From an uncultured Phycisphaeraceae bacterium (GTDB lineage Bacteria > Planctomycetota > Phycisphaerae > Phycisphaerales > UBA1924): a stretch of DNA of 64,000 bases. The stretch is from positions 1 to 64,000 of the forward strand of contig CALCCF010000026.1 of assembly GCA_937899905.1 (NCBI GenBank), written 5' to 3'. A program made the position numbers and the translations under genes. The notes beneath the pieces are model-generated. The model had not been told where the DNA came from. It worked only from the letters and a program-made list of their open reading frames with translations, and made no database searches. Below are positions 2,024 through 41,389 of the stretch, in pieces. Numbering within the stretch: position 1 is the stretch's first letter; each line of letters opens with the position of its first letter.

Positions 2024-3601
2024 ATGGACACACACACCACCTTCCTCGCTCGGTTCGCTCTGACACTCGCGACCACCGCCGGCCTCGCCACGATCGCCGC
2101 GTGCTCGGAGTCCGAGACCTCGGTCTCGGCCGAGCCGGTCTCGGCGCCCCTGGACCCCGCCTCGACTGAGATCGCCCTGGCGGAGGCCGCCGAGGCGCTC
2201 CAGTCATGGTCGGGTGACCTGACGATCACGATGGACGGCGACGTGAGCGATTGGCCGGACGACATCGCCGCGGTTGCCGATGCCCACTGGCTGTACCTGC
2301 GGTTCTCGCTCGGCAGCCAGACGCAGACGCTCCAGGGCATGCCCACGCCGGTTGCGGTGTGGATTGACGCCGACGGCAACCCCAGCACCGGGCGATCCGT
2401 CGAGGAGCCGAAGGTCGAGGGTGGTCTGGGCGCCGACATCGAGGTCATCTTCTCGCCCCGCGAGCCGGACGCACGCCGGCCTGGGGCGGGCGTGATGTTC
2501 CGCGTCCACACACCCGACGGCAGCACTCGAGATATCAGCCACGAAGACTTGGGCTTCCATTTCACGCCTTCGCACGCCGCGGAGTGGTACGAGATGCGGA
2601 TCGCTCGATCGGTCGCGGCACAACTCGGGATCTCCACCGATGGCCTGGGCACCAGTGGTCGGATCGCGGGCGTGGTCGCGATGTTCGATCGGGACCGTCA
2701 GGTTCGCGCGTGGGCAGACCCGTTCGAGGTCATGGCAACCCAGGCCGCGAGTTGGGAGCCGTCGGACGTCCGCATCCCGGCACGTCCCGACGATGCCCTC
2801 CGCGTGCTGAGCTACAACGTCGAGCATTCGAGCCCGGTGAAGAACCCCGAGCCGTTCGCGCGCGTGATCCGTGTGCTTGATCCCGATGCCATCCTCTTCC
2901 AGGAGTGGGTCGAGGGCGACGCTGAGGCGCTCAAGGCGTGGCTCACGGCGTACGTCGACGACCAGGCCGATTGGCACGTGCTCAAGGGCTCGGCATGGGG
3001 CGTCGCCGTCGCCTCGAAGCACCCGTTGACGGCCCTGACCGACATGGACACGCCCAATCCGATGCGCAGCGATCGCACGCTGCGGTTCATCGGCGCGCTG
3101 GCTGAGACGCCGATGGGGCCGCTGGCCGTTGGTTCGACACACCTCAAGTGTTGCGGCACCAAGGACAGCCGCGAGGACCGCCAGCGCGTCGCTGAGGCGT
3201 CGCTAATTGCGAGCATGCTGACCGAGGCGCTGGGCCAGTCGCCGGGCGCTGAAGCGGTGTCAGTCGTCGTCGGCGGCGACCTGAATCTTGTTGGTTCGCG
3301 GCCTCCGCTCGAGGCGATCGGCGCTGGTGTCGACCTCGACGCCTCGTCGCTCACCGTCGCCGAGGCGATGCTGCTCGGTGACAATGCGATGTATACCTGG
3401 TACGACGCCGGCAACACGTACACGCCGGGCCGGCTCGACTATCTGCTCTACAGCGATTCGGTCGCCGAGGCGGCCAACAGTTTCGTGCTCGACACCAGCA
3501 AGCTCAGCGAGGCGGCTCTCGCGCGCTTGGGCCTCGATGCAACGGACACCGCCGCGAGCGACCATTTGCCGGTGGTGCTCGACGTGAAGCCGCTGAGGTA
3601 G
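2024..3601 (+). CDS. Endonuclease/exonuclease/phosphatase family lipoprotein
   Basis: Signal/lipobox TIAACSE; LRVLSYNVEHSS...ILFQEW...STHLKC...GGDLNL...SDHLPVV EEP-superfamily motifs. Confidence 0.8.
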   Translation: MDTHTTFLARFALTLATTAGLATIAACSESETSVSAEPVSAPLDPASTEIALAEAAEALQSWSGDLTITMDGDVSDWPDDIAAVADAHWLYLRFSLGSQTQTLQGMPTPVAVWIDADGNPSTGRSVEEPKVEGGLGADIEVIFSPREPDARRPGAGVMFRVHTPDGSTRDISHEDLGFHFTPSHAAEWYEMRIARSVAAQLGISTDGLGTSGRIAGVVAMFDRDRQVRAWADPFEVMATQAASWEPSDVRIPARPDDALRVLSYNVEHSSPVKNPEPFARVIRVLDPDAILFQEWVEGDAEALKAWLTAYVDDQADWHVLKGSAWGVAVASKHPLTALTDMDTPNPMRSDRTLRFIGALAETPMGPLAVGSTHLKCCGTKDSREDRQRVAEASLIASMLTEALGQSPGAEAVSVVVGGDLNLVGSRPPLEAIGAGVDLDASSLTVAEAMLLGDNAMYTWYDAGNTYTPGRLDYLLYSDSVAEAANSFVLDTSKLSEAALARLGLDATDTAASDHLPVVLDVKPLR

Positions 3602-14475: not shown

Positions 14476-15195
14476 GTGATTGTCTCCGGGGTCCATAGCC
14501 ACGCACTTGAGCGGCCAGGGGGTGCCGGGCCGGGCGTTGATTTTGGGATGGATGAGGCCGATCTGGGCCTGAGCCCGGGGGCGATCCACGACTGGATCGC
14601 CGAGCCGCTGACGCCGTTGTCGATCTTGGCGGGTTTGGCGGGGACGGCCGTGCGTGGGTGTGGCTCGAGGCGGGTGCTCTGGATCGGTCGGCGGTGCTGG
14701 CCGTATCCGCCCGGATTGGTCGGGCCCGGTGGCAACGCGGCGTTGCTCGAGCGATCGATCTTCGTGGACCCACCGACGCGCGATGAGCGGCTGTGGGCGA
14801 TCGACGTGGCGTTGCGCTCGCCGGCGGCGCTGGTGGTGGTGGCCGACGGCACGGGATTGGCGATGGCCGGTTCGCGCAGGTTGCAGCTTGCGGCCGAGGC
14901 GGGGCGGACGCTCGGGCTGATCGCGCGGCCGCACCGCGAGCGTGGGGAGCTCTCGGCGGCGGCAACACGGTGGCTCGTATCTCCCGGGCCGATGGATCCG
15001 GCCAATCCGATTCTTCCGACATGGACGCTCGAACTGCTGCGCCGCAAGGGACTGCGGCCCATCTCGGAGGGCGCACGGGTGATGACCGTGCGTGTGGAGG
15101 ATGCCACGCGCCTTGTCAGTGTGGATGCCGACGCTGCCGATCGATCTGCTGCGGCGACGGGACCGGGCCGATGGGCGGCCCAGCGCTCGGGCTGA
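14476..15195 (+). CDS. imuA: ImuA-like (SulA/RecA-like) mutasome accessory protein
   Basis: Position upstream of imuB/dnaE2; RVLWIGRRCWPYPPGL...VVVADGTGLAMAGSRRLQLAAEAG; GTG start. Confidence 0.7.
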   Translation: MIVSGVHSHALERPGGAGPGVDFGMDEADLGLSPGAIHDWIAEPLTPLSILAGLAGTAVRGCGSRRVLWIGRRCWPYPPGLVGPGGNAALLERSIFVDPPTRDERLWAIDVALRSPAALVVVADGTGLAMAGSRRLQLAAEAGRTLGLIARPHRERGELSAAATRWLVSPGPMDPANPILPTWTLELLRRKGLRPISEGARVMTVRVEDATRLVSVDADAADRSAAATGPGRWAAQRSG

Positions 15196-16636
15196 GCGTG
15201 TCCTGATCGTGCGGGCCGAGGGGCAGCGCCGGGTGGTGGCGGCGTGCTGCGATCGGGCGGCCGATGCGGGCGTCGTGCCCGGCTTGCCGGTGGCGCAGGC
15301 GCGCAGCGTGCTGCCGGCCGGTTCGGTGCGCGTTGTAGAGCACACGCCCGAGCGTGATGTGGCGCGGCTGCGCGCGCTGGCGGTGTGGGCGCGTCGGTTC
15401 TCGCCGCTGGTGCAGACCGACGGCGTCGATGGGCTGTGGCTGGACATCACCGGGTGTGCGCACCTGTTTGGTGGCGAGCGGGGGATGTGCGAGATGGTCG
15501 TCGATGGCTTGCAGAAGCTGGGCGTTCGGAGTCGGGTGGCGATCGCGGATACGCATGGGTGTGCGTGGGCCATCGCGCGGTATGCGACGCCTCGGTCTAG
15601 TGAAGACGGTTCATCGATCGTGCTGCCGGGGGAGCAGCGTGGGGCGATGGCCCCATTGCCCATCGCGGCGCTGAACATCGACGACGCCACCGTTTCGGCG
15701 CTGGCTGACCTTGCGATCGATCGCGTGGGGCAACTGCTCGAGATCCCGCGGCGTGTGCTGCCTTCGCGTTTTGGGAACGCGCTGCTGCTGGCGCTCGATT
15801 GCGCGCTGGGGCACGCGATGGAGCCGCTGACGCCGATCCGGCCGGTGGCGCCGTGCCGGAGCGAATCCGTGTTCGATGGCTATACCACGAATGTTGAGGC
15901 GATCGAGCTGGCTGTTCGTGAGTTGCTGGACGATGTGTGCGATCAGCTGGCCGGGCGTGGGCGCGGTGCTCGGCGGCTCGTGCTCGAGCTCGGTCGGTAC
16001 GAGCTCGACGCCCTGGCGATCCACGTGACGACGAGCGTACCGACGCGGGATGCAAAGCATTTATGGGCGCTCGTGCGGCCCAAGCTCGAGCGGGCCCATC
16101 TCGGGTTCGGGGTTGAACGCGTCACCGCCACGGTCTCGCGCGATGCGCTGATCGTCCCGAGCCAGATCGTGCGGTGGGGGGGTGGTGATGACGCGGACGG
16201 ATCGGCGGGCGAGGCCGAGGCGGCGGAGCTTGTTGACGTGCTGGCGGGTCGGCTAGGGAAGGGGGCGGTGCGTGGGGCCGTGCTGAAGGAGAGCCATCTG
16301 CCCGAGCGTGCGTTCGAGTGGGTCTCGCCGGCTGCCCAGCGATCGGGCGCGGACATCCGTCCGCCGGGCGAGCGGCCGACCACGCTGCTCGATCCGCCGA
16401 TGCCGACGACCGCGATCGCGCTCACGCCCGATGGGCCGGTGCATCGCATCCGCTGGCAGAACGAGGACCGCATGGTGGTCGCGTGCGTGGGGCCCGAGCG
16501 CATCGGCGGCGAGTGGTGGCGCGGGCACGGCACGACGCGCGATTACTTCCGCGTGCGGTGTGAGGATGGCGTCTGCCTGTGGGTGGCGAGAGCGCGTGAG
16601 AGCGGGCGGTGGTACGTCCATGGTGTGTGGGCCTGA
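15125..16636 (+). CDS. imuB: ImuB-like Y-family polymerase paralog
   Basis: DGLWLDITGCAHLFGGERGMCEMV...GVRSRVAIADTHGCAWAIARYA; C-terminal RIRWQNEDRMVVACVGPERIGGEWW. Confidence 0.85.
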   Translation: MPTLPIDLLRRRDRADGRPSARAERVLIVRAEGQRRVVAACCDRAADAGVVPGLPVAQARSVLPAGSVRVVEHTPERDVARLRALAVWARRFSPLVQTDGVDGLWLDITGCAHLFGGERGMCEMVVDGLQKLGVRSRVAIADTHGCAWAIARYATPRSSEDGSSIVLPGEQRGAMAPLPIAALNIDDATVSALADLAIDRVGQLLEIPRRVLPSRFGNALLLALDCALGHAMEPLTPIRPVAPCRSESVFDGYTTNVEAIELAVRELLDDVCDQLAGRGRGARRLVLELGRYELDALAIHVTTSVPTRDAKHLWALVRPKLERAHLGFGVERVTATVSRDALIVPSQIVRWGGGDDADGSAGEAEAAELVDVLAGRLGKGAVRGAVLKESHLPERAFEWVSPAAQRSGADIRPPGERPTTLLDPPMPTTAIALTPDGPVHRIRWQNEDRMVVACVGPERIGGEWWRGHGTTRDYFRVRCEDGVCLWVARARESGRWYVHGVWA

Positions 16637-16651
16637 ATTTCGAGGACGTGC

Positions 16652-19600
16652 ATGCCGGACAACGAGTTCCCGAAGATCAAGGCCCATCCTTTCCGCAAGG
16701 TCCAGCATCGGTCGGTCGATGCGATGTCGGCGTATTCTCGCGCGTCGACGCCCTACGCCGAGCTGTCGGTGACATCGAACTACACGTTCTTGAGGGGCGC
16801 GAGCCATCCCGAGGAGTTCGTCGAGCGGGCGGCCGAGCTCGGGCACGCGGCGGCGGCGATCGCCGACACGAACACGCTGGCCGGGGTCGTGCGTGCGCAC
16901 GTTGCCGCGAAGGAGGCGGGCATCCCGCTGGCTGTTGGGTCGCGGTTGGTCTTCGAGGATGGGCCCGACGTGCTGGCGTTCGCGACGGATCGGTCGTCGT
17001 ACAGCCGGCTGAGCCGGTTGCTGACCCTTGGCAAGCGCAGGGCACCCAAGGGCGAGTGCCACCTCGTGTTGCACGATCTGCTCGAGCACCAGAAGGAGTT
17101 GGTCGCGGTCGTGATGCCGCCGGCTGTGCTCGATGATGATGCGATCGCGGTGCTACACGGATTGCGTGACGCATTTGGCGATCGGCTTTCGCTGGCGGCC
17201 GCACGCGGGTATCGCCCGGGCGATGCCGAGCGGCTCGACCAGCTCGCGTCGCTCTCGCACGCCGTGGATGTGCCGTTGGTCGCCGTGAACGATGCCCATT
17301 ACCACTGCCAAGATCGCCGTGACCTACAGGACGTGCTCACGTGCATCCGCCACGGCTGCACGGTCGACACCGCCGGGTATCGCCTACATCCCAACGCCGA
17401 GCGGCATCTCAAGCCCACGGACGAGATGGCCCGGCTGTTTCGTGATTTTCCAGGTGCCGTTGAGCGATCCGCCGAGATCGCGTTGCGCGCGTCGGCGTTC
17501 AGCATGGACGAGCTGCGATACCAGTACCCGTCCGAGGCGTGCCCGGCGGGCGTGTCGGCGTCGGCGTATCTGCGGCAGGCGACGATGGCAGGCGCGACGT
17601 GGCGGTACGGCGATGATGTGCCCGAGTCGGTGCGCGGGACCATCGAGCACGAGCTGTCGATGATCGCCGAGCTCGGGTACGAGGCCTACTTCCTGACATG
17701 CTACGACATCGTGAACTTCGCGCGGTCGCGTGGCATCCTGTGCCAGGGCCGCGGCGGTGCGGCGAACAGCGCGGTGTGCTATTGCCTTGGCATCACCGAG
17801 GTCGACCCGGCTACGCACCACTTGTTGTTCGAGCGGTTTATCAGCCGCAGCCGGGGCGAGCCGCCGGATATCGATATCGATTTTGAGCACGAGCGACGTG
17901 AGGAGGTGATCCAGTATCTGTACCAGAAGTATGGACGCGATCGTGCGGCGCTGACCGCTGAAGTCATCACGTATCGCGGTCGGAGCGCCGTTCGCGAGGT
18001 TGGCAAGGCGATGGGGCTCTCGCTCGATGGCGTTGACGCGCTCGCCAAGAACCTTGACCGCTGGGGCGATGACGCGACGCCCGAACGCGTGCGTGAGGCC
18101 GGCTTTGACCCCGAGGACCCGACGATTGCCGCCATCATCGGCCTGACACGCCAGCTCATCGGCTTCCCGCGGCATCTCTCGCAGCACGTGGGCGGGTTCG
18201 TGATCACCGAGGGCCCGCTGCACGACCTCGTGCCCATCGAGAACGCGGCCATGGAAGACCGCACCGTCATCGAGTGGGACAAGGACGACATCGACGCGAT
18301 GGGGATGCTGAAGGTGGACTGCCTTGGGCTGGGGATGTTGACGTGTGTGCGGAAGGCGTTGGAGATGGTTGTTGGGAGAGAGACGGAGAGACGGAGAGAC
18401 CAAGAGACAGAGTGTGGGGGGTTCTATGGCGAATGTGAAGACGTTTCGGGATCTTGTGGCGTGGCAGAAAGCGATGGAGTTGGCTGTCATGGTCTACGAG
18501 GTGACCAAGTCGATGCCCGAGGGCGAGCGGTTTGGTCTGACCAATCAGATGAGGCGGGCGGCGGTGTCGATTCCTTCGAACATCGCCGAGGGCTTTGGCC
18601 GGGAGAGCCGGGGAGACCTTCTGAAGTTCTTGCGGATTGCCCGAGGATCGCTCAACGAGCTTTCGACCCAAGTCGAGCTTTCGGCACGGCTCGAAATCCT
18701 CACGATCGATTCGGGAATGACGAGCCTCATCGACGAGGCCGATCGCGTACTCCAGGGACTGATCCGAAGCCTGAAAAGCAAAGAATCGTAACACATGCAA
18801 CCACTTCGTCTCTCCGTCTCTGTATCTCTCCGTCTCTCTTTGAGCAAACCCTCACCCTCTTCCGAACCATCGCCTCCAACCCCACCGATCCCGCCGTCTA
18901 CGAGATGATCTCTCACGCCGACACCGTTGGCGTATTCCAGATCGAGAGCCGGGCGCAGATGTCGATGCTGCCTCGGCTCAAGCCGCGGTGTTTTTATGAT
19001 CTGGTGATCGAGGTCGCGATCGTTCGGCCCGGGCCGATCCAGGGGAACATGGTGCACCCGTACCTGCGTCGGCGTGAGGGCGCCGAGCCGGTGAGCTACC
19101 CGAGCGAGGAAGTGAAGGCCGTCCTGGAGCGCACGCTTGGGGTGCCGCTGTTCCAGGAGCAGGCGATGCAGCTGGCGATCGCGGCCGCGGGGTTTACGCC
19201 CGACGAGGCCGATGCGCTGCGCAAGGCGATGGCGGCGTGGAAGCGCAAGGGTGATGCGATCTACCGGTTCGGGCAGCAGCTCATCGATGGGATGGTCGCG
19301 AATGGGTATCCGAAGGAGTTCGCTGAACGCTGCTTCGAGCAGATCCGTGGGTTCAGCGAGTATGGGTTCCCCGAGAGCCATGCGGCGAGCTTTGCGATCC
19401 TGGTCTGGGTCTCGTGCTGGCTGAAGCGGTACAAGCCGGCGGCGTTCTGCGCGGCGATCATCAATAGCCAGCCGATGGGTTTCTATCAGCCGGCACAGAT
19501 CGTGCGCGATGCGAAGGAGCACGGTGTTGTCGTGCGGCCGATCGATGTGAACGAGAGTGTGTGGGATTGCACACTCGAAAGATGTGGAGAAGGGGCGGAG

Positions 19601-20395
19601 CGACGAAGCGGCGGAGGGGTTGGGGAGCCGCCGCATACGTGGGGATTGGGCGGGCCGGCGGTTCGGCTTGGGATGCGGTTGGTGAAGGGGATGGTCGAGG
19701 CGGATGCGCATCGGATCGCTGAGGCGGTGGGTGTGCACGGGCCGTTTGCGACGATCGAGAGGCTGTGGCGTGCGAGCGGGGTGAGCGTTCGCAGCTTGCG
19801 GGCGTTGGCTCGGGCCGACGCGTTCGGTTCGATGGGGCTCGATCGGCAGCGGGCGTTGTGGCAGATCAAGCCGTTGTGCGATGACCCGTTGCCACTCTTT
19901 GATGACACGGATCATGGTTACACGGTCGATGACGATCCCGATGGGCTCGGCTCGCTCCCCGCCGTGCCCGCGAACCGGCTGGTGCTTGAGGATTACTCGA
20001 GCACGGGGTTGTCGTTGAAGGCGCACCCGCTCTCGTTCGTGCGGGAGTCGCTCCGGGCGCGTGGCGCGATACCGGCGTCGGATCTGCGAAGCGAGCGGCT
20101 GTGCCCGCAGGGGCGCACGGTGTCGGTTGGCGGCTTGGTGCTCATGCGGCAGCGGCCGGGCACCGCGTCGGGGGTGGTGTTCATCACGCTGGAAGACGAG
20201 ACGGGCATCGTGAACCTGATCTTGTGGCGTGACGTGTTCGAGCGTTTCAGGCGAGTCGCGAGGCTGAGCCGGGTCATGCTCGCCCACGGGCACATCGAGC
20301 GGCAGGGCGAGGTCGTCCATCTGCATGTCCATGGGCTGGAGAGTCTGGACGACCAACTCGATGCGCTGGTCGCTCGCAGCCGCGACTTCCACTAG
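16652..20395 (+). CDS. dnaE2: Error-prone DNA polymerase III alpha, DnaE2, containing a large in-frame insertion
   Basis: PHP-like N-terminus, [102 protein letters not shown]; anomalous stretch at ~18376-18840. Confidence 0.92.
   Translation: [1247 protein letters not shown]
18378..18838. mobile_element. IVS-like element: inverted arrays of octamer GAGAGACG flanking an S23/IVP ORF, inserted in dnaE2
   Basis: 5' array GAGAGACG GAGAGACG GAGAGACC AAGAGACA (18378-18409); 3' array CGTCTCTC CGTCTCTG TATCTCTC CGTCTCTC (18807-18838); about 26/32 complementary; interrupts DnaE2 homology. Confidence 0.75.
18426..18791 (+). CDS. Four helix bundle protein (23S rRNA intervening sequence protein / S23 family)
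   Basis: MANVKTFRDLVAWQKAMELAVMVYEVTKSMPEGERFGLTNQMRRAAVSIPSNIAEGFGRESRGDLLKFLRIARGSLNELSTQVELSARLEIL: hallmark W(Q)KAM.L...Y, RRAAVSIPSNIAEGFGR, FLRIARGSLNEL. Confidence 0.9.
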   Translation: MANVKTFRDLVAWQKAMELAVMVYEVTKSMPEGERFGLTNQMRRAAVSIPSNIAEGFGRESRGDLLKFLRIARGSLNELSTQVELSARLEILTIDSGMTSLIDEADRVLQGLIRSLKSKES

Positions 20396-41361: not shown

Positions 41362-41365
41362 GTGG

Positions 41366-41389
41366 AAGAGACGGAGAGACGCATAGACC
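41366..41389. repeat. Solitary octamer array AAGAGACG GAGAGACG CATAGACC
   Basis: Same octamer as the arms of the dnaE2 insertion; 4 nt after hpt stop. Confidence 0.7.

Follow-up and report, generated by a model that had tools for sequence, protein, structure and literature searches.

The origin and purpose of the intervening sequences (IVS) of bacterial 23S rRNA genes have been unclear for over 25 years (PMC4990558). Here we describe an element of this kind that lies in frame within dnaE2, the gene of an error-prone DNA polymerase, in a 64,000-nucleotide stretch of DNA (the window; contig CALCCF010000026.1, positions 1 to 64,000 of the forward strand) from an uncultured Phycisphaeraceae bacterium, and that carries an open reading frame (ORF) of the S23/IVP family. 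To our knowledge, the S23 family is without known function. Two further systems invite comparison: Rickettsia palindromic elements, which are short palindromic repeats that lie in frame in protein genes, are apparently translated and have no gene of their own, and the repetitive extragenic palindromes and REP-associated tyrosine transposases (REP/RAYT), in which non-autonomous palindromic repeats are accompanied by a dedicated gene for a small protein whose type matches theirs. We estimate a probability of roughly three in four that the dnaE2 insert is an IVS-type mobile S23 element that entered a tolerant loop of dnaE2 in frame, and that elements of its lineage have invaded this loop, and its counterpart in DnaE1, on many independent occasions.

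Results

The host gene dnaE2 (16652 to 20395, forward strand) encodes 1247 amino acids without a stop and stays open across the insert. Its product matches the error-prone polymerase family NF004225 with 1382 bits (cut-off 939) in two separate stretches, and the gap between them is the site of the insert, which lies between the KALEMV helix and the DPAVYEM...GVFQIES segment. The element itself (18377 to 18839, forward strand; 463 nt, with its outer limits set by its arms) is in frame within dnaE2 and without DnaE resemblance. Its left arm (18377 to 18414, forward strand) consists of four GAGAGACG-like octamers, namely GAGAGACG GAGAGACG GAGAGACC AAGAGACA at 18378 to 18409, and a short tail, and its right arm (18802 to 18839, reverse strand) is an inverted octamer array with the units CGTCTCTC CGTCTCTG TATCTCTC CGTCTCTC at 18807 to 18838; both arms are 38 nt long and they are 82% complementary. 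A 17-mer version of the octamer pattern has 12 matches in the window against 1.0 expected, a count reached in 0 of 100 shuffles, and genome-wide a 16-mer version has 20 matches against 0 for the same pattern reversed. Between the arms lies the only recognisable gene of the element, a four-helix-bundle S23/IVP ORF (18426 to 18791, forward strand) of 121 amino acids plus TAA, read in host frame +1. It belongs to PF05635 (E = 4.2e-35, 120.6 bits, cut-off 33.8), and its AlphaFold2 model is of high confidence (predicted local distance difference test, pLDDT, 94) with four helices, being closest to the Xanthomonas protein 2gsc (template-modelling (TM) score 0.89, root-mean-square deviation 0.8). Two relatives of known structure, 2gsc and 2rld, are each deposited with five chains.

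The element has the terminal inverted repeats, able to pair as a stem around an S23 ORF, that are characteristic of IVS, and its octamers correspond to the short tandem repeats seen in the terminal region of the Coxiella IVS, a feature that is not part of the formal definition of an IVS. The defining location in a 23S rRNA gene is not shared, as the element sits in dnaE2. Recomputation of ORF, arrays and arms gave the coordinates and frames of an earlier note on this DNA, and its description of an IVS-like S23 element in frame in dnaE2 is borne out by the PF05635 match, the arms and the empty orthologs described below. The insert is not an intein: Pfam and NCBIfam scans of the entire host protein gave no intein or Hint match, and its host-frame residues are poorly conserved.

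Orthologs were collected in a family survey as 85 dnaE2 loci with both flanking motifs, which were sought in any frame on the same strand, so that the set was not selected for open frames; most genomes surveyed are drafts. Two congeners (G076 and G079), whose DnaE2 is 87-89% identical downstream, have a short loop at the insert site, of 204 nt (L134) and 180 nt (L135) against 648 nt in the window, such that the insert amounts to 148-156 additional codons. An S23 ORF is present in 19/85 loops; filled loops measure 624-942 nt and most empty ones 180-204 nt, and all 85 are in frame and stop-free. In 18 of the filled loops S23 is in sense orientation, always in host frame +1, and in one it is reversed (L136). 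Longer loops without S23 hold arrays only (L164, L182) or, in L186 (594 nt), an insert of another kind. The earlier note had named orthologs with a homologous domain of about 155 residues, yet lacking S23, as an observation that would speak against insertion; except for L186, the orthologs without S23 lack the segment. The same note had looked to ortholog alignment for the insertion boundaries and any target duplication, and while the congeners did supply empty loops, no target duplication was recognisable at the element ends when filled and empty dnaE2 loops were compared. By comparison of these loci the element is shown to be an insertion, with relatives that are mobile and a site that is a hotspot. 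We note that the dnaE2 loop of genome G043 (L171) contains two near-identical mini-elements nested on either side of the S23 ORF, with GAGGTGTC arrays around a core GGGAAGATGTCACC...TCTTTCCC.

Each element resident in dnaE2 has one octamer type, common to both arms, and the types found in this one loop, which amount to at least six distinct octamers, are GAGAGACG, GGCACGAA, GAGGTGTC, GCGACGGA, AGGGGCAA, GAGTGGTC and AGGGATGG. On a DnaE2 tree based on about 250 columns, the filled state requires 17 changes compared with 17.3 for shuffled labels, at least 7 of them forced by starred branches, and distances between S23 proteins are uncorrelated with those between their DnaE2 hosts (Mantel r=0.07, equalled or exceeded in 1254/5000 permutations). 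The congeners L132 and L133 are both filled; their DnaE2 proteins differ by 8%, their S23 proteins by 37%, and their octamers are unlike. The S23 of L133 is nearer to that of L136, which comes from another genus and has the same octamer type as L133, than to that of L132. Because octamers differ, filled tips are scattered and S23 and DnaE2 distances are uncorrelated, the insertions into the dnaE2 loop are judged to be independent and to have occurred many times. Within the octamer group of the S23 tree, the elements resident in dnaE2 cluster in a clade that contains almost nothing else.

A profile search for S23 across the order located S23 elements in two genes confirmed as DNA polymerase III alpha, DnaE1 (L241, L246), and one in DnaE2 of a different family (L250). 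In a survey of DnaE1, all 90 loci are in frame and stop-free, and four have S23 at the homologous position, in host frame +1. Inserts made up of arrays alone occur in further DnaE1 loops, among them L342, which has inverted GAGAGACG arrays; the DnaE1 loop of the window's own genome (L336) is short and falls outside the set of loops longer than 260 nt. A second group of octamer S23 elements was observed between accB and accC in five Phycisphaerae-type genomes (L053-L057, S23 ORFs near 3000-3400), beginning immediately 3' of the accB stop. These loci were considered as possible rRNA and rejected, an Rfam scan giving no hits. Given the dnaE2 clade and this accB-accC group, S23 lineages therefore seem to prefer particular sites. 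Another replication-related location was seen on a Nostoc plasmid, where the genes of the two ribonucleotide reductase subunits are separated by an S23 gene that has inverted arrays of the heptamer AGTAGGG (L225, 1495-1863). S23 was looked for in phages and none was found, and recent transposition on plasmids could not be seen in two Calothrix copies, which have common surroundings and so offer no empty site. ORFs that span other S23 loci in antisense (L050, L028) were judged to be chance occurrences in GC-rich DNA.

Host-frame stops are absent from the S23 ORF in 18/18 sense dnaE2 residents, compared with a mean of 2.5 stops in the equivalent frame of S23 ORFs elsewhere in GC-rich DNA, where only 5/38 have none (Fisher p=1.6e-10). 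In the remaining forward frame, almost all S23 ORFs are interrupted by stops, in dnaE2 residents and elsewhere alike. Divergence at the three S23 codon positions is.37/.30/.55, and amino acid identity is higher in the S23 frame (.53) than in the host frame (.30); as judged from these values, purifying selection acts on the S23 frame. The S23 protein of L192 has lost some conserved residues, and the host frame there is nonetheless open. Purine-rich stretches, which were not scored, lie upstream of many S23 starts. With both host and S23 frames constrained, the data would fit translation of both, by read-through and by internal initiation. Removal with ligation would make insert length and host-frame stops irrelevant, and the absence of stops thus speaks for read-through; most likely, the insert is read through by the host ribosome and not removed.

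The combination of S23 and arrays is not confined to dnaE2. Among 133 S23 ORFs with flanks, taken across phyla, 95 have inverted flanking arms above every shuffle, compared with 2/304 random intervals drawn from the same loci. The array period in these 95 is 7 in 50 and 8 in 44, with RAGNNNNN as the typical octamer unit. The period tracks the protein, as the nearest S23 neighbour has the same period in 94/107 cases (shuffled mean 53), and unit distance tracks S23 protein distance (Mantel r=0.39 and 0.48, 0/5000 permutations each), a correlation that fits a putative recognition of the arrays by S23. S23 genes of cyanobacterial plasmids (Nostoc, Calothrix) have inverted heptamer arrays alongside, and the Coxiella 23S rRNA IVS has tandem GACAGAT heptamers just 5' of its S23p ORF as well as terminal inverted repeats (PMC4990558); the rRNA elements therefore appear to share the plan. 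A figure legend in a survey of CRISPR-linked proteins lists '23S rRNA IVP' (PMC10910872), and repeat finders might take short arrays beside S23 genes for CRISPR arrays.

Arrays also occur without S23, and all counts of such copies come from pattern searches. In the window's genome, which has a single S23 gene, several short GAGAGACG-type inverted arrays enclose other cores (C8, C65, C67), and one array lies in frame in an acyl-CoA carboxylase gene (C82). Exact-pattern counts in 163 genomes revealed arrays amplified on both strands where S23 has the matching octamer, with low control counts. With the arrays of the element itself excluded, 17/18 type-matched genomes still have arrays of the matching octamer, against 60/471 other genome-pattern pairs (p=7e-14, with hand-compiled type lists and genomes that are not independent). 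Within the genus of the window's bacterium, G000 has 7 GAGAGACG and 0 GGCACG arrays, and G078 has 0 GAGAGACG and 16 GGCACG arrays. A second DnaE2 loop has array-only in-frame inserts in relatives, and in several cases (L133, L052, L136) these share the octamer of the resident S23; in the window, this loop holds a degenerate octamer array (GGAGCGACGAAGCGGCG; 19586 to 19622, forward strand), also in frame. Elsewhere in the window, an array-only stub with the octamer of the S23 element (GAAGAGACGGAGAGACG, exact; 41365 to 41389, forward strand) lies just 3' of the stop of an upstream ORF. Two array-only elements of the window's genome (L008 and L021, in C67 and C65) have a common 50-nt hairpin core, GTGAAGAGCGGGCCGAGACGCG...CGCTCTTGCCACTTC, and look like a non-autonomous family of their own. 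Directly upstream of dnaE2 lies an imuB-like Y-family polymerase gene (15092 to 16636, forward strand; PF00817, PF11799), an arrangement that is the same as in imuB-dnaE2 cassettes.

Discussion

Our data strongly indicate that the host ribosome would read through the element, with the polymerase gaining some 150 poorly conserved residues, and indicate that the S23 protein is probably translated from a start codon of its own within the dnaE2 message. We infer that the arrays are recognised by a putative S23 ring, which would promote the copying of DNA that matching arrays border, including array-only copies in trans. Neither a reverse transcriptase (RT) nor a Y1 transposase is consistently present with the element. 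RVT_1 had no match in the window's genome, in its six congeners or in 134/163 family genomes, with S23 present in 100 of the 163, and Y1_Tnp was not found in G078, G092 or G089, all of which have a filled dnaE2. As such, the element has neither the RT near an Avd gene that marks a diversity-generating retroelement (DGR) nor the self-encoded transposase of a Y1 (IS200/605, RAYT) element.

Several observations weigh against this account of a mobile S23 element that is read in two frames. Neither a precise target duplication nor a clean empty-filled junction was found, as the loop evolves fast and the alleles are too divergent. The insert-bearing DnaE2 fragment gave an AlphaFold model too poor to use (mean pLDDT 53), and for Coxiella the authors of the study conclude that the bacterium probably does not produce S23p in vivo (PMC4990558). 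The correlation between unit and protein could also stem from linkage, or co-inheritance, within one element. Several genomes have arrays and no detected S23 (for example G013, G047, G159 and G160), and the array-only copy in the acyl-CoA carboxylase gene seems to replace a variable loop rather than add to it.

Of the alternatives, RT-dependent copying with S23 acting like the Avd partner of DGRs would be a variant of the mobile-element account that supplies its copying step. The S23 model is, more remotely, like Avd (4dwl, TM 0.75) and also matched a DGR ribonucleoprotein (8ub8), and the protein has a weak sequence match to the bAvd family (PMC10053308), but with RVT_1 missing from the genomes named above we give this variant an outside chance, in which an RT could still act in a donor cell. 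An RNA-level intervening element, whose arms would pair in the mRNA and be cut by RNase III, with the element either removed and the ends ligated or two mRNA halves left, is quite unlikely, even though the arms do pair in the predicted RNA fold (z -2.8 against shuffles) and known 23S IVS are cut by RNase III (PMC4990558). An open host frame is needless for removal, yet the 85 dnaE2 and 90 dnaE1 loops are uniformly in frame and stop-free and host-frame stops are significantly absent from resident S23 ORFs; cutting without ligation would moreover break the mRNA of the replicative polymerase DnaE1, and the RNA of the empty site shows no special structure. We also considered, and rejected, that the element had inserted into an mRNA hairpin already in place, the empty dnaE2 site being, if anything, less structured than its surroundings. 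The earlier note had left three options side by side, and frame conservation favours a frame-preserving selfish element that adds residues to the loop, while its RNA-level intervening element is not required by the data.

Vertical inheritance of a single ancient insertion, already present in the family's common ancestor, domesticated, kept for polymerase function and lost many times, would account for the same relative frame in filled loci and for one S23 clade whose sampled members nearly all sit in DnaE2. It would not lead one to expect filled loci as single tips among empty ones with incongruent trees, congeners with unlike S23 and unlike octamers, one reversed copy, related elements in DnaE1, or host-frame residues as poorly conserved as these (0.30), and we regard it as very improbable. 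That an assembly error placed the S23 locus inside dnaE2 is hardly credible: the window's genome is a draft assembly of 113 contigs, but the same arrangement recurs in 18 other dnaE2 loci, including that of the two-contig genome G078, each with its own arrays and open frame.

Beyond what the earlier note had described, the dnaE2 loop is a recurrent hotspot, the DnaE1 loop is also hit, the octamer varies between insertions and the array-plus-S23 plan is general. We see an even chance that S23 genes with inverted 7- or 8-bp arrays constitute one widespread mobile class without a transposase, recombinase or RT of its own, which would include the rRNA IVS and from which the heptamer repeats of cyanobacteria may derive; a putative S23 ring would recognise the arrays and drive spread in cis and in trans, and one lineage would have specialised on the DNA polymerase core loop, coding in two frames. 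These data suggest that the copies in rRNA genes represent a small part of a large family of mobile elements, whose targets also include protein genes, that of the replicative DNA polymerase among them, and they give S23 a testable role in the recognition of its own repeat arrays, for which the octamer types provide matched and mismatched substrates in binding and mobility tests. With a conserved mobile gene in its second frame, the polymerase gene also offers a clean example from nature of two reading frames under selection. Judged from the open-access PMC literature, the wider S23 mobile-element family is apparently undescribed.

The inverted heptamer arrays that flank the Nostoc and Calothrix plasmid S23 genes have the same look as the cyanobacterial heptanucleotide short tandemly repeated repetitive (STRR) sequences. 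We know of no link between STRR repeats and S23 in the literature, and no paper making one was found in the open-access PMC literature, subscription journals and preprints being outside that scope. With the 23S rRNA IVS of Coxiella, Leptospira and Brucella, the element shares terminal inverted repeats around an S23/IVP ORF of about 120 amino acids and a sporadic distribution; it differs in its protein-gene host, the frame that is kept open, the octamer repeat and the array-only copies across the genome, and excision by RNase III, as occurs there, would probably not suit an mRNA. The fold of S23 and its weak bAvd match are in common with the Avd proteins of DGRs, whereas here no RT was detected in the window's genome and the element has no other gene. 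Matching repeats and a small protein gene are likewise found in REP/RAYT systems, although S23 is not a Y1 transposase and is without known catalytic residues. Finally, Rickettsia palindromic elements are also palindromic inserts in frame in protein genes, and unlike them the S23 system has an autonomous copy with a conserved ORF.
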